Part shown: piece by piece, positions 17,433 to 24,829 of the stretch
How positions within the stretch are numbered: the first letter of the stretch is position 1
Layout of the letters: every line of letters begins with the position of its first letter
NCBI GenBank assembly: GCA_019096195.1
Contig: JAGTXK010000239.1
Span: forward strand, 310,001-374,000
Source of the DNA: Boletus sp. NGJ
Taxonomy: Eukaryota > Basidiomycota > Agaricomycetes > Boletales > Boletaceae
DNA length: 64,000 nt
Direction of reading: 5' to 3'
Made by a program: the position numbers and the translations under genes
Notes under the pieces: model-generated
Database searches by the model: none
The model's input: only the letters and a program-made list of their open reading frames with translations
What the model was told of the DNA's origin: nothing

Positions 17433-18708
17433 ATGATTCCTTCCAGCGCTACCTCAACCTCGGAAGCTTATGAACTCCTTATTTCACTCCTAACCAAGTG
17501 TCCGTGAGTGATCCCTATGATACAGAACATATACACGAAACGCATGTTTCTCAGTCAGACAATTGAGATCCTTCCTGGCGATGGCTCCGTTTGGATGCAC
17601 ACACAGAACCCAGATAACGTCGAGGAACCGTCCTTTGCCCCATTCCTTTTCGTCGAGGGCAACCTCGGCATCCCACAAAAGATCCTTTACAAGGTCTATC
17701 TTTACGCTGTCGGCGTCTTCAAGTCCGCTCGCAGCTGCGTACCAACACGACCGACAGTAAAGAACCAACGGAATCGTGACCTCGACCCCCCTCTAGTCCG
17801 GGTTTTGACCGCGTCATCGTCCATTCTGGTACTCGCCAACCCATCCCACCAAACAGCACTCAATTCCAGAAAGCATCTCGTTCAAATGCACCTGATCGAC
17901 CCGCACGCTGAGCTACGTTTCATCGCATCGCTTCTTTCTTCACAGCACTGCGCCAAACACGCCGAGTTGTGGTACCACAGGCGATGGCTTCTCAGTGCCA
18001 CCTGCGATACGCAATTCTCAGATGGTACTGCCGGCGTCGATTCCCATTGCCACCTTCGTTTCGCGTCACAAGCAGCACTCCAACAAGAACTCGATTTAGT
18101 ATCACGAGCGTGCGAGCTCTATCCGCGAAATTACTTCGCGTGGACACACCGTCTGATGTGTATGCGGAGTCTTCTCTTGGACTTTCTCTCTGGTACGGGT
18201 ATTGTCAACTTTGCTCCAATTTTCCGCAACGAAATCGCAGGAGTAAAGGGATGGATCGACCGTCATGTGTCGGATTACAGCGCGATCCATTCCATTCTCA
18301 CACTCTCTCAAGCCGCTCTCCGGAGCGGAGATTCGTCCTTGGTGCAGATGGTCATCCAGGAGGATTTGCTGGCTCATGCCCTTTCCCTGGTGCAAGAATA
18401 TCCTGCTCACGAGGCTCTCTGGATCTATATCCGAACAGCCCTTTCTATCTCAGACTTGTGGCAAACACACCAAACCCAACAATTCATAGATCATTTTGTT
18501 CAACCTCTAGCATATCTGCAACAAACAAAGATTGGTACAATGGATGATCTTGTTAGGGCATCACAATGTGCCAAACAGTTTTTGGATAGAAGAGTGTGTT
18601 ACAAATTCACTCCAGGTCAGTATGCACAAGACTCAGTAGGCTTTCATGATCACTGATGATTTCTGCCCTCATGATATGCTATGCTAATGTTCTACAGGAT
18701 GTGACTGA
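17433..18708 (+). CDS. protein prenyltransferase alpha-subunit repeat protein (PTAR1-like)
   Basis: Three exons: 17433-17503, 17555-18615 and 18698-18708, 380 aa. Exon 1 is required because LLTKCP joins QTIEILPGDGSVW in frame. The last exon adds only a Cys-Asp end after FTPG. PPTA repeats are clear: KHAELWYHRRWLL (about residue 160), LYPRNYFAWTHRLMCM (about 215) and DYSAIHSIL (about 265). They match the tetratricopeptide-like alpha subunits of farnesyl/geranylgeranyl transferases, and the length and repeat spacing best fit PTAR1. PTAR1-type proteins pair with a Rab geranylgeranyl transferase beta subunit. The last ~280 bases, final intron and last exon lie inside the CpG-depleted island. The stop is 24 nt from the stop of the convergent DUF1917 gene. 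Confidence 0.82.
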
Positions 18709-18732
18709 ACAAATTGATGGGGAAATGCTAGT

Positions 18733-20299
18733 CTAGATTTTCTTCCTCTTAACTGAGGATTTATTATGACCTCCCTCACTTTCATCCTCCTGGACCTTTC
18801 TCTTCCCGCTTATATCAGCCAACTTTCCACTCTTGGGATCAGTCTCATCATCAGATGCAAAAGGATCTTCTGCAACCCTCTTTTTAACAAGGAGTTTAGA
18901 CTTTCCTGCAGCTGCCTTGAAGTCCTTGGATGAACCTGCAGGGGGAGTTGCTGTAGCTTTGGAAGCAGACAGCTCAGTGTAATATGCCTCCTTCAGCTCC
19001 TATATAACCATCTCAATTACATCCTGAGCTATCAACTGGACTCATACCTTTATCTCAGAATCCTTCAGCAATGACACATTCTTCCAAACCTACTAGACTT
19101 TCAAGTGGTATGCTACAAGAGGATTAGAAGCTACCTACAGTGGAAGGTATGCCACTAGGATGTTTGCTGTCCAAGCCTTGCAATCAAAGTTGGTGAGGGA
19201 TGTACTGCATGTATAGAAGGCAAACAAACTATACCTATGATTGTGTATAGATCAGACTTGACTCCACTGAGATTGAGCCTGTGCTGTCTCAAAAGCACTT
19301 TTATAACCTATTGAGAGCTTAGTATAAAAGAGTGAACCTTGATGAAACATACTGCAGTGATATCTTCCTTGTCATAGACATTAGGAATGTATACACATAT
19401 GACATGCTGGTGCCCAGGAACAGCATTCTCAGGTGATGTAGCAACCTTTGCACAAGAGGCGGATGTGGAAGAGAGGGGACCAGAGATCAGGGAAGCTATT
19501 GGGAAGATATTAGCCATGAGACAGCTATAAATGTAATATCTCACAGGCTATCTTGCTCCAAATTATATCCACCTTGTCTGACAGAGCAAAAATCAACCTA
19601 ATAAACAAAAATGATGGGCAATCAAAACAGATTCCTAGGAACATACCACTTCCCATTCATGAAACCATACTTCTGGAATATATCCTTTAGCTTGCCAGCA
19701 GCATTGGCTTGTGCCTACATGAGACTGAGCTCCACAGAACCCAAGTGGCAGAGTGAATTATTGACCTGCTCTTGAACCTTCTTTTTACTCTGTGTGTCTT
19801 CTTTTTTATTACCATGCACAGGGATTGACATGTCATTCTGATTGAATGACCAATGAGTGACAGTGCCACAAGTCACCCATCACTCTTACCTTGATCTGCT
19901 CGACCCTTTCAGTCACTTGCTGCACTTCAGACAACTTCAGTCTCGTGTATATGAAAAAGGCGAAGTGCTCACAAAGGGCCACAGCTTCCATGACAGCAAC
20001 TGCTTCATTCTTGACTGATGATGATTCAGCTATTTTTTCCTGTCTCACCCATAACCACTAGAACAGTTATGTCAACACTGTTTCATTTACCAAACCTGAC
20101 ATGACCTTACAGGCTTGGCTCCATCATTTTGAACCATAGATGGCTTATACTGTATGTGTGTGAGATGCGAACCGTGTTGCAGGACCTTTGTACCCACCTT
20201 TGCAGCAAAGTCTTCTACAGAGAGTGTAGTGCTGGGTGACCAAGAATACTGATAACCTGTGGGGATTGTATCATCTGAGCATGCTGTGCTTGTTGACAT
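18733..20299 (-). CDS. DUF1917 / UPF0696 (C11orf68-like) family protein
   Basis: Multi-exon gene starting at ATG 20299 and ending with a Lys-rich tail (SSVKRKKI, TAG at 18733). Exons give LSVEDFAAKVGTKVL near the N-terminus, KPWLWVRQEK across the first intron (GT at about 20114), then a long helix (AVALCEHFAFFIYTRLKL). GKW|LIFALSDKVDIIWSKIA|SLISGPLS follows across two introns, and CAKVATSPEN, HVICVYIPNVYDKEDI, VLLRQHRLNLSGVKSDLYT and GLDSKHPSGIPSTV complete the domain. That order (KWLIF, KVATSPE, HVICVYIPxxxD, DLYTxxG) is the family's eIF4E-like fold, of unknown function. A charged tail (DPFASDDETDPKSGK) is probably disordered. The coding sequence is nearly free of CpG, unlike its neighbours, yet splice sites and frame are intact, so it is probably expressed. 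Confidence 0.68.
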
Positions 20300-23081
20300 G
20301 CTATTTTAGACGTGGGTTGATTAGATTGAATGGGCGAAAAAGAGGGAGATAATCCAAACACTCCACACATCACCTCTGATGCAGCATATACTGTATCACG
20401 TGACTAATATTTTACGTTGAGCCTTGACAGAATTTACCAACATGTCATGGCGTGCCTGTCCATGGCACAGATCAGTGCTGATGCAAAGGGTCTCCAGGCC
20501 AGGCCTATCCCAATCACCATGTCCAATCAAACGTGATGAGAGCAGGGCACTCACTCTCTGTAGATTTTTCTTGTTTCAATAATGTCTGTCGGAACAACTC
20601 AAGGAATGACCCCCTTTGATCCCCAGAGATAAACATGTCTCCGCAGTAGCTGCACACAGTGATAGCACAAGGTCTCTAATTGGCAGTAGTATGTTACCTC
20701 CAGTTTGTGGTGGGAATGAACTTTGGGCTGACCCTGAAATGTGAAAGAATCTTCAAAAGAAAATAAGGTGACTTCCCTTGGTATCTCACACACCTAACAT
20801 CAATCATATGCAGAAAGGATAGTGTACTGAGTCTATGGGCAATGTTATGATTCTCAGTTCTACCCTACAGCAACCCATTTCTTCCCATGATGAATTCTTT
20901 CTGAGAAAAACTGTATTCCATGGGGCTGCACTAAAATAAAAACTAGACTTGCAGATATCAGACCATACCACTCACCTCCTGCATACATTTTCAAGGCATG
21001 TCAGCACAGGAATTGCTAACCAGCTTATCTTCATATCTGAGCCAAGGCATGACAGCCCGGCATCCCCAACAAACACACCATGAGTTTCATCAACAGCATC
21101 AATACTAGTATGGGCAACTTCTATATGGTCCCATTGAATGCACACAGGGAAGAGAGAGGTCAGTACCATCCTCTGCAAATTTCCTGCACAACAATTGCTT
21201 TTGAGGCACCAACTGAAGGCTGTGAAGCTATTTAGGCATCAAGGGTCAAGTGGCCAAGCATCCTACTCTGCATAGTATTGCAGCCTTGCGGATATTCTGT
21301 GTTGACCTGCATTAAACTCGTTTCATATACAGTCAGAAGCTAGGACCCAAATAGAATTAATTCTACCACTTGCAGCAGTTATAATATTCCAATACTCTAA
21401 GGCCCTATGACCCTTAGTATGACCCAGTAACCCTGCAATTCTTAGAATATTCCACCAAGAAACCAAGAAGAAATTAATGTTTTTCTCCAACACATAGCTC
21501 TGTTACTATCTACAAGTACATAGCTAATAGAACTGTAAATAAAATGTATATAGCCAAGTGCCAGTGAGAGAACATGATCATGTGACCATGAGCTATACAG
21601 CCTTGTATCACCTGACTGAACATTCCATGGAGTTCTATGACATTCTTTGAAGTTCTATGCTTTAGTCAGCAAAAGCTTGGCATTTGTAATAAACCTCTTG
21701 GCATTAGTAAGCAGCCAACCCTTCTGATTGGCTAGCCAAGCCCATGTATTTATCTATAAAAGGAGAGCCATTTAGGCCACCAAGAGAGCAGATCACCCCT
21801 CATACAGGGCATCTCAATCAGAGAAGTTCTCTCAAGGAGAACAATTCTCACCTCTACTCGGAGTACCACTCACAGGCAACCCACAGAGGACCTTGAGGAG
21901 GACATTCTCCATTGTTTAGACAGCTAGTTAGATTGTTAGGAGTAAACTCTTGTAGCCAATAGTGCACAAGAAATATAGGACACCTTTTGGAAGAAAACCC
22001 TAAATAGGGCAACAAAAGGGAATAGATTCCCAACAGTTTAATTCTACTAGACCCTAAACATCCCTGCTACTCTGCTAACTGCCCACCTAAGAGGATAAGT
22101 GATAGTACAGCCAAACAAGCACTGAATTGCACTCTCCTTAGCAAACAATAAGATTGAGTTACTACAACCTATCTGAGTGACCTAAGTGTAGTGTAAACCT
22201 ATTCCAGTCTTATCTGGAACATCTCAACATCTCAACAATCCAGCATATCTGCAGATTACCAGCCACAAAGTCATTGCCTTTTAAAGCAATTAACTCATTT
22301 GACTTTCTAAAAAAGCCTACTAACTAAAAGTCTAGCAACCTAGTAGTGTTGACTAGCATACCTTTAGATGTGTTTACAGTTGTTTACACTATTATCTAGA
22401 CTACAGTTGAAACTATTTCAATTCCAATTCTTTAATACTTGTTGGAAATTGGTGAACAACCCATGCACTTAGCTATACTAAGTACTCAACTGACTCAACC
22501 TAGCAAACCTAGAGATTGTTTCATCTAGGAGGTAAACTTTCCCCTAGCTTATAGTGTTCTAACCATGGGAGGCAAAGCAAGCATCTGGAGAAACCTATTG
22601 TTAGATAAAGTTTCCTTTGCTTTTGCCTGCATAGAAGTCAGCATAGTGTTGCAACCTTGTGGATATTGACCTGGGTAAGTGCAAGAAGTTGGTGCAGCAT
22701 GGATGATTGAAAGATCACCTAGCAGAGTTCATGATAGGACTGTGAAATACTAGAGATGTTTTTGTTGATCAGCTCCCCATGGACCTAACCGAAGCTAAAC
22801 ATAACACACTTCCATATCCCAAAGCTTCAGTATCAAGACAGTGGCTACTGACCCACAGAAGATAACTGCCCTACATGTTAGCACTCTATTTGACTAGAGA
22901 AATTGTTCAGGGTATCGAGTGGATGTGGGGTGTTCATCCATAACTTCACCCAAATCGAATGTGGCCGACCTGGCCCCAGCATGGCTGCACTTAAAAGCTA
23001 TGCTACACCAACAACTTGAGCATCAGTGAATCTCTCTGTGGTATCATACCACATTGTGTGTTAACACTGCCGAGAAGATGG
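20300..23081. mobile_element. non-coding part of the CpG-poor island, probable transposon remnant
   Basis: No reading frame with protein character. A core-promoter-like TATAAAAGG lies near 21758, followed by paired GTTCTC/GAGAAC inverted repeats (about 21827-21845). Two imperfect copies of a short motif (GCATAGT, TTGCA, CCTTG, GGATATT, GACCTG) occur at about 21277-21330 and 22631-22670. This arrangement suggests a decayed LTR-type or non-autonomous element, but I found no intact terminal repeats, primer site or polymerase. Confidence 0.35.
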
Positions 23082-23324
23082 CATCAGTACATTTACATGC
23101 ATCTTATTCTGTCTTATTCAGCTTATTGACTTGCACAACATTTCCAAATCTGACATGGGGACAAATTCTAACCCTCATTTTGTTGAAATATAGATCAGCT
23201 TGGTTGTTGTTGATGTTTCTGATGTTCTGGGATGCATTATCATGGTAATGAATACATTTTGTAATTTGACAAGCAGAATTAGCTAGAATAAGCCAGATTA
23301 AGATGCATGTAAATTTACTGATGA
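23082..23324. mobile_element. foldback / MITE-like element with ~40-bp terminal inverted repeats
   Basis: The left end (23082-23123, beginning CATCAGTACATTTACATGCA) is the reverse complement of the right end (about 23281-23324) over about 40 bases with five or so mismatches. The shared core is TTTACATGCATCTTA. The total is about 243 bp with no coding potential. TA dinucleotides near both ends could be a Tc1/mariner-type target duplication, but this is not certain. It marks the right edge of the CpG-poor island. Confidence 0.6.
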
Positions 23325-24829
23325 CTGCCACGGCACGAGATCACGAAGACTGCTTGGAGTACCGATACTTCCAATGATCACTGATCACTCGCATGGTCTG
23401 TAGAGAGCATCCACACCAACCAAGGGGAGCTTTCACCACGCTACCCTCGTTTCGTTCCGTTTCCTCCACCACCCTTTTTTAAACCTTCTTCTGTCAGAGA
23501 GGAAACACTTTCTGCGTCGTTCATCCACCCCGGCCCAGATCGACCCTGTCCAGGGTTCCTCAGCACACCAAGTGGATCGATCTTTCACAGCAGATTTCCT
23601 TCTTTCACTCTCCAGTCGCGTTTTTCCCTTGCTTCTCGCGCCTTTATCTCCTTCCTTGATCTGTCGCGGCTGGATCCTGTGGACCCGTTCTTTCTGGGTC
23701 TCTCTCGTTCTCATACACACACCCACACATAGGAAACGAACGTGGCAGTGTTCAAGTTCCTCACCACGAGGCCGTGAAGGGCTCATGCTCGGAGCTTGGG
23801 CTCGTGTGGGCAACTGCAGTGTGATAAGGTGTGTCCATTGAGGTGGCGTGATTCGCCCAAATACCATCTTTTTGCATCACATACAGGCGTCGATAATGAA
23901 TCCCTAGCCAGTCTCCTATCAGGTATCCAATCCCAATCCAACGTTGCACTATCCCAACAATACTGGATTCGACCCTTCGGGGTGCGGTACGGAATGCCTT
24001 TCGCCGCATTTTTTTCTCACAGGAAATGCACACACAATATTTGTTCGCTGCCACTGTCGACGATGAGTGACCACACGTGATGGTTCTTAAAGGGAGGCTA
24101 TATGGTATGTATCGTATGTTCTGGGGTTTACTGAACGTGTTGCGGCGACGAGGATAGTGCATGCTCGAATAAATGAGCATGTTCTAAGTAGGGAATGTTT
24201 CAAGTATGACATGGCCGTCAATTAAGCTTTAGCCCAAGCGCGGGCCCAGGAACACCGGCAGGTGATGTGGAGATAGAAGGGAACGGGGAATACGAAATGG
24301 ATTAAAGCGCAGACATCATTGCAAGGAAAAATAAAATAAAATAAAATAAACAGTACTACCTGCCATACGCTCCGCCTTTGCGTCCTGTATAATTTTTACA
24401 CGAGCACAGCCCAGCTCAAATAACATCAACGACTCTCCCGGCACGCTCCTGTCCACGTCTCCGTGCGTCTCCCTCGTAAAATTGCTCATGTCATGCTTTA
24501 CTTCAGTCGTGCCTCCCCCGCATCCCCTTCCGACGATCGAACACCCGGTGGCAACTCGGGCACCAAATTAGCAATCGACAGACTCGCTGGTGATCCAGCC
24601 GCTACGAACAATGCGTGATACGTATATCAGCCAGCGCATGAAGTGAAGGGGAAAACCGGGGCAGTGAGGAACTTAGAAACAAGGGGAAGTGTTTGAATTG
24701 GGGCCACTGGTAACACGTAACACCCTGCATCCACAAGACACCCGCGGCGGTGGCGTTCGCACGATTACTTCAGTTGGCAGCAGCTATTGTGAGTACGTTA
24801 CATCTTTCAAAGTTAAATGTACGCCGTGG
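23325..24829. other. intergenic, pyrimidine-rich stretch, no gene recognised
   Basis: CpG-rich DNA again. 23455-23745 is strongly C/T-rich on the + strand, like a fungal promoter or 5' leader, but no convincing coding exon follows. Short frames at 23433-24180 on both strands lack domain character. Confidence 0.4.
24327..24350. repeat. (AAAAT)n microsatellite
   Basis: Nearly five tandem AAAAT/ATAAA units in an otherwise unremarkable intergenic stretch. Confidence 0.85.

Follow-up and report, generated by a model that had tools for sequence, protein, structure and literature searches.

Near-complete loss of CpG across two repeats and a conserved, apparently selected single-copy gene in Boletus: a putative methylation-type footprint

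Introduction

It is already known that cytosine-guanine dinucleotides (CpGs) decay in fungal transposons and that methylated transposons accompany repression of their neighbors. The excerpted text of PMC4352252 describes CpG-biased C-to-T decay in basidiomycete transposons, and basidiomycetes typically carry the methyltransferases DNMT1 and DNMT5 together with CG methylation, according to an extract of PMC7862722. In Pleurotus and Laccaria, transposon-associated repression of neighboring genes is reported, with methylation in gene bodies and 1-kb flanks that is negatively correlated with expression (PMC4905642; PMC5974365; both in extract). A literature search found no paper that treats CpG depletion in a basidiomycete together with transposable elements and DNA methylation. 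Drosophila heterochromatin houses the functional genes light and rolled, which offer an analogy only, of a functional gene in silent-type chromatin, with no homology. Here, we analyzed a window of 64,000 nt from Boletus sp. NGJ (assembly GCA_019096195.1, contig JAGTXK010000239.1, forward-strand positions 310,001 to 374,000; all coordinates below are those of the window) and, within it, a block of about 4.9 kb that is nearly devoid of CpG and includes a gene of the BLES03 family. This family (PF08939) occurs in Dikarya; K128, K159, Y175 and K204 of human BLES03 correspond to phosphothreonine-lyase active-site residues, and the lyase activity is a prediction (PMC4159009, in extract).

Like the transposon decay in the excerpt of PMC4352252, the block shows CpG turned to TpG or CpA near repeats in a genome that has cytosine methyltransferases; unlike that decay, it affects DNA that is mostly single-copy and includes a conserved gene whose sequence bears the mark of purifying selection. 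As in the extracts on Pleurotus and Laccaria (PMC4905642; PMC5974365), transposons adjoin genes, although methylation was seen there and is deduced from sequence here, and whereas the effects reported there concern expression and methylation, the present locus displays near-complete CpG loss through an intact gene.

Results

The preliminary description of the window placed about 24 CpGs in 4.8-4.9 kb between CpG-rich flanks, regarded both edges as sharp, and proposed a sliding-window check of CpG together with TpG and CpA. Recounting agreed with it throughout: positions 18434-23327 hold exactly 24 CpGs, an observed/expected ratio (o/e) of 0.114 at a GC content of 41.6%, against an o/e of 1.05 in the left flank (GC 52.4%) and 1.01 in the right (GC 51.4%). 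The step is clear in sliding windows, and TpG (o/e 1.46) and CpA (1.34) are raised over the ~1.12 of the flanks, while GpC is normal (1.06). A likelihood scan returned 18336-23330 as the best single low-CpG segment (26 CpGs; log-likelihood gain 247), and all 500-bp windows outside it have an o/e of at least 0.45. Dense CpG ceases at 18432, with the next CpG at 18807; on the right, a CpG at 23071 is followed by dense CpG again from 23331. In five 10-kb stretches taken from elsewhere in the genome (assembly of 32.8 Mb in 141 contigs), no desert was seen, and the minimum 500-bp o/e was 0.5. From left to right, the locus comprises a PTAR1-like gene, a CpG-free frame, the BLES03-family gene, unique DNA, a repeat resembling a long terminal repeat (LTR), unique DNA, and an element resembling a miniature inverted-repeat transposable element (MITE):

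17508..18433, plus strand: PTAR1-like gene (protein prenyltransferase alpha-subunit repeats), CpG-rich part, o/e 1.13; PPTA match, E 5.4e-20
18434..18656, plus strand: CpG-free continuation of the PTAR1-like open frame, 223 bp; sole open frame of six
18733..20299, minus strand: complete gene of the BLES03 family, 354 aa in 10 exons; PF08939 match and gene model
19901..20642, no strand: 5′ end and promoter side of the BLES03-family gene, 13 of the 24 block CpGs; scan p 0.0006
21270..21296, no strand: left-hand unit of a 27-bp imperfect direct repeat, beside the LTR-like repeat; 24 of 27 positions identical to 22641-22667
21300..22643, plus strand: LTR-like repeat without internal region (solo LTR), 1.34 kb, TG...CA ends, 2 CpGs; family alignment
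22641..22667, no strand: right-hand unit of the 27-bp imperfect direct repeat, where the LTR-like repeat ends on the right; BLAST match of 30 bp at 86.7%
22644..23081, no strand: unique DNA in which CpG is partly lost, o/e 0.23; self-match only in the genome search
23082..23323, no strand: MITE-like element, 242 bp, no CpG; 38-bp inverted repeats, 92% complementary

Only about one-third of the block (~1.58 of 4.89 kb, the LTR-like repeat and the MITE-like element) is repetitive. A unique stretch runs from the BLES03-family gene to 21299; 18434-21290 is single-copy, a DNA search of the genome returning the self-match only, and a protein search of the genome with the BLES03-family gene likewise found no second copy. 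The block as one 4.9-kb transposon was rejected on these two results. Moreover, a clean target-site duplication is absent at both repeats, and there is no sign that the block as a whole moved as one unit. The earlier view of the block as a methylated insertion thus finds support for the two repeats only and not for 18434-21290, which is single-copy and carries an apparently selected gene; the whole looks instead like the trace of methylation-type decay over a domain of mixed content, in which two repeats lie beside that conserved single-copy gene. The desert also contains an 88-aa open frame (20972-21238, minus strand) with no Pfam match and no second genome copy, and a tRNA search found none.

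That the block contains a complete spliced gene, as previously noted, was confirmed by a model with nine GT-AG introns, which encodes 354 residues plus a stop and has no internal stop. A decayed pseudogene was rejected, since the TAG in exon 3 is removed by a 51-bp GT-AG intron with the letters left unchanged. The protein matches PF08939 over residues 53-220 (E 5.5e-17; 62.9 bits against a curated cut-off of 23.1) and aligns with the human BLES03 structure 1ztp (phmmer, E 7.3e-4); all four of the residues named above are identical in this alignment, a likeness to the family as characterized in the extract of PMC4159009. Unlike the family, this protein has a Lys-rich, acidic C-terminal tail, and its coding sequence (7 CpGs, o/e 0.13) has zero CGN codons. 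The introns contain 0 CpG in 502 bp. A PF08939 profile search of the organism's own genome gave no match, even to this gene, and is uninformative.

CpG losses in the gene seem to have been mainly synonymous, a pattern pointing to purifying selection that would have kept the gene working. The neutral model takes CpG losses at codon positions 2-3 and 3-1 as half synonymous and those at 1-2 as never so. Relative to nine CpG-normal open reading frames (ORFs) of the window, the excess of synonymous products was 0.090 per codon, against a neutral 0.082, and the excess of non-synonymous products was 0.022 ± 0.025, against a neutral 0.133 that none of 2000 bootstraps reached. Repeating the analysis with eight Pfam-supported ORFs, genes being resampled, gave 0.020 ± 0.027 versus 0.130 (0 of 2000). 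This pool consisted of PTAR1 and those seven of the eight other ORFs that matched a Pfam family at E <= 0.01, although one of the seven matches fell short of the curated cut-off, and ORFs 2366+ and 7050+ had been excluded at the outset as doubtful frames. The test presumes that the ancestor resembled the pool, and since the protein is rich in Lys (11.6%) and poor in Arg (2.3%) relative to the CpG-normal ORFs (3.6% and 6.2%), the effect size may be off. The CpGs that remain are concentrated in the 742 bp of 19901-20642, where the clustering is still significant (p 0.0008) when conditioned on CG/TG/CA sites. Retention of more CpGs would follow if the promoter were less methylated, and the gene is presumably active.

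The LTR-like repeat (TGTTGACC...GTCAGCA) has at least 45 matching pieces elsewhere in the genome, a lower bound because 40 of 127 candidates were scored; the count derives from 48 matches, less the window itself and two MITE arms, and some matches belong to the same copy. Target-site duplications of LTR retrotransposons are usually short, about 5 bp; no 5-bp duplication was found at the ends of this repeat, and the 27-bp imperfect direct repeat stands in its place. The locus of one copy (L008) encodes a reverse transcriptase (PF00078, 2e-19), and two others (L003, L016) have gag-like frames without a Pfam match. Among 29 copies, each contains 0-6 CpGs (o/e <= 0.11), and 56 of the 57 measurable 250-bp flanks have an o/e below 0.45, the remaining one exceeding 0.8. 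Hence, CpG loss goes with the family and reaches into its flanks, and, being common to the family, the low CpG of the repeat was mostly inherited rather than lost at this site. Spread was profiled at 10 of the 29 copies, chosen for a change in profile, in 250-bp steps over 1.5-kb flanks: CpG recovered toward normal within ~250-750 bp at L004, L015, L020 and L021 and after ~1 kb at L009, and several copies showed no recovery within their flanks. The right side of the block matches the spread distance of the family, and the partial loss in 22644..23081 is probably spread from the LTR. In a clade of five copies, six former CpG sites are kept in 9 of 27 readable cells, and in one of six in the window copy; the data suggest a CpG decay rate in the family a few tens-fold above that of other sites.

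Other features of this family were observed in passing. Long open frames lie in CpG-poor tracts adjoining L010, L017, L022 and L030; that at L017 encodes a Tc3-type transposase helix-turn-helix (PF01498, 8.3e-13), and the other three are similar by eye. On contig C79, the matches L018/L019 and L028/L029 form pairs in which both members have equal scores but opposite strands; such a pattern would suggest that a large segment is duplicated in inverted orientation or that the assembly folds back on itself. Five copies (L003, L004, L011, L012, L027) lie less than 3 kb from a contig start, a position typical of repeats at which assemblies break or which sit at chromosome ends.

Methylation-type decay, to which the preliminary description had attributed the CpG loss, finds support in the TpG/CpA excess and in the LTR family. 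In an alignment of 27 sequences (the window copy and 26 others), 13 dinucleotide sites are mixed TG/CA, against 3 in the mirrored GpC control, indicating that the same CpGs were lost independently on either strand. Pieces of cytosine methyltransferase (PF00145) are present on three contigs (C45, C102 and C22), with a BAH domain over cut-off on one C45 ORF (2.9e-10) and another BAH match on C22 that does not reach the cut-off; another methyltransferase piece is presumably DNMT5-like. From the sequence of the block, we infer that it has been methylated. C45 also contains two near-identical methyltransferase segments (L032 and L034), ~28 kb apart in opposite orientation, one of whose ORFs has the BAH domain.

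At the right edge, the MITE-like element stops 8 bp short of the point where the CpGs of the normal flank begin. It has at least 39 other copies in the genome (40 of 50 candidates scored), and 22 examined copies hold 0 or 1 CpG each. A 2-bp target-site duplication is present in 15 of 19 readable copies among these 22 and absent from the window copy. The element as seed of the desert was rejected, as its close copies L050 and L055 lie in CpG-normal DNA.

At the left edge, the PTAR1-like gene matches the human PTAR1 structure 6j74 (E 3.1e-16), significantly so as far as residue 269 (18314). From there, weak co-linear similarity that would not reach significance by itself (i-Evalue 54-72) continues to residue 309-311 (18434-18440), where its end coincides with the CpG edge. 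Beyond this point, the reading frame is the only one of six to stay open, to 18656, which has a 4.4% chance. No relevant solved-structure match and no NCBIfam match was found for this tail, and the fit of the human PTAR1 C-terminal motif to it was not significant (p 0.20); nor was a PTAR1 C-terminus found right of the block, by a 28-aa motif test that is weak. The non-synonymous CpG-product excess of the tail (0.115 ± 0.055 versus a neutral 0.129) is the opposite of that of the BLES03-family gene, as unconstrained or non-coding DNA would show. The left edge, lying inside the PTAR1-like open frame, may be either spread into an exon or a rearrangement breakpoint. A search of the genome found no second PTAR1-like copy, and no relatives of PTAR1 or the BLES03-family gene were found in viral contigs. 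The BLES03-family gene and the PTAR1-like frame run toward each other, and their stops are separated by 76 bp (18657-18732).

Discussion

With a probability of roughly 0.58, we favor the reading that the desert is the footprint of a long-lived CpG-methylated domain of silent type rather than of one methylated insertion. This domain would take in the solo LTR together with the conserved minus-strand gene of the BLES03 family, which is single-copy. Methylated CpGs would have decayed to TpG or CpA, and selection in the gene would have passed mainly the synonymous outcomes, leaving the protein intact, while a less methylated promoter would have retained more CpGs. On the right, the loss tapers over ~440 bp past the LTR, probably through spread of methylation, and the final 242 bp hold no CpG, since members of the MITE family are almost without CpG everywhere. 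On the left, the domain would span the whole BLES03-family gene and stop inside or at the end of the PTAR1-like gene.

Several observations weigh against this reading. The left arm measures 2.9 kb, which is long beside the mostly 250-750 bp at other LTR copies. The terminal branch of the window LTR copy is 0.025 substitutions per non-CpG site, and if the LTR seeded the left part (o/e 0.129), CpG decay would have been ~80-fold faster than at other sites; either the LTR copy is as old as possible or the domain is older than the copy. The TpG/CpA excess accounts for 163 of the 311 CpGs missing, or about half. Finally, two coding models score the 18434-18656 tail as not coding: the first was trained on the BLES03 coding sequence and is ill suited to PTAR1, and under the second, built on CpG-decayed ORFs of the window, a score as low as that of the tail occurs in 0.5% of 210 held-out coding scores and one as high in 20% of 116 non-coding chunks, with another frame of the tail outscoring the reading frame.

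This last result would also fit a rearrangement that brought an already methylated, repeat-rich piece with the BLES03-family gene up against the PTAR1-like gene, so that both edges would be breakpoints and the PTAR1 3′ end was possibly lost. The missing coding support past 18434, the right-edge MITE without the 2-bp duplication that most copies have, and the LTR with its 27-bp imperfect direct repeat in place of a short clean duplication are all in keeping with such an event. However, the frame stays open across the left edge, no PTAR1 end turned up to the right of the block in the weak motif test, the BLES03-family gene has no donor copy elsewhere in the genome, CpG loss on the right is gradual ahead of the MITE, and three other MITE copies likewise have no 2-bp duplication; on balance, we regard a rearrangement as unlikely. 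The age of the LTR copy, which seems young for the extent of the CpG loss, would be accommodated if methylation predated it, drawn by the gene itself or by its tail-to-tail meeting with PTAR1 through double-stranded RNA and small RNAs, the LTR having inserted only afterward into chromatin that was already silent. The left CpG minimum does lie at the convergent 3′ ends (2 CpGs in 18434-19789), with the promoter, which is less depleted, lying between it and the LTR, and pieces of Argonaute/Piwi genes occur on five contigs. Convergent neighboring genes are common in fungi, yet the window has no other desert, and we consider gene-directed methylation a rather poor prospect.

Two further explanations appear very improbable. 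One is that the DNA is foreign or intrinsically poor in CpG, such as a horizontally acquired gene, with no methylation involved. The GC content of the block, the Lys-rich and Arg-poor composition of the protein and the absence of a second gene copy could be read in this way; low CpG, however, spans the gene, introns, unique DNA and LTR alike, TpG and CpA are in excess with GpC normal, and 29 of 29 LTR copies elsewhere are equally CpG-poor. The other, to which we would give just as little credence, is active repeat-induced CpG mutation, akin to repeat-induced point mutation, leaking from the LTR into its single-copy neighbors in place of slow decay. CpG loss is indeed very high for the age of the LTR, and CpG-biased C-to-T change in basidiomycete transposons is on record in the excerpt of PMC4352252, but the kept promoter CpGs and the selection acting during the loss suit a slow process better, and the left arm is long for leakage.

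If the favored reading of a long-lived methylated domain is correct, what we seem to see here is a conserved gene, present once in the genome, that has long resided in such a domain, with nearly all of its CpGs gone and its protein still selected. One locus thereby opens two questions: how a gene functions in silent-type chromatin, in this case with CpGs retained at its promoter, and what stops methylation at the border. On the second, a lead rather than a result comes from the MITE family. With 300-bp flanks, 8 of 22 copies have an o/e below 0.45 on one side and above 0.8 on the other (6 left, 2 right); of the rest, 7 have two low flanks, 2 have two high flanks and 5 are intermediate; with longer flanks, 7 of 22 (500 bp) and 6 of 22 (900 bp) lie on such steps. 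The background for the 300-bp rule is 0.8% in the window, 0.4% in the five other stretches and 1.3% at LTR loci, but 10.8% when the flanks at eleven MITE loci serve as background. Among the LTR flanks, by comparison, 1 of 57 exceeds 0.8. The thresholds were set post hoc, the pattern having been found after looking, and the count spans 22 of 40 listed copies, among which L057/L058 and L064/L065 are duplicates. The association could reflect a preference for insertion near genes at repeat borders. A bolder proposal, and a long shot at present, is that the CpG-free hairpin acts as a barrier that would halt the spread of methylation here and at other domains, the genes inside staying functional. 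Among the 8 of 10 titles listed by a search of the literature on MITEs, heterochromatin, boundaries and DNA methylation in fungi, none dealt with MITE borders in fungi, and if the association holds in the remaining copies, the element would be a candidate barrier in these organisms. The copies on sharp CpG steps are that at 23082-23323 and L051, L056, L060, L063, L068, L069 and L070.

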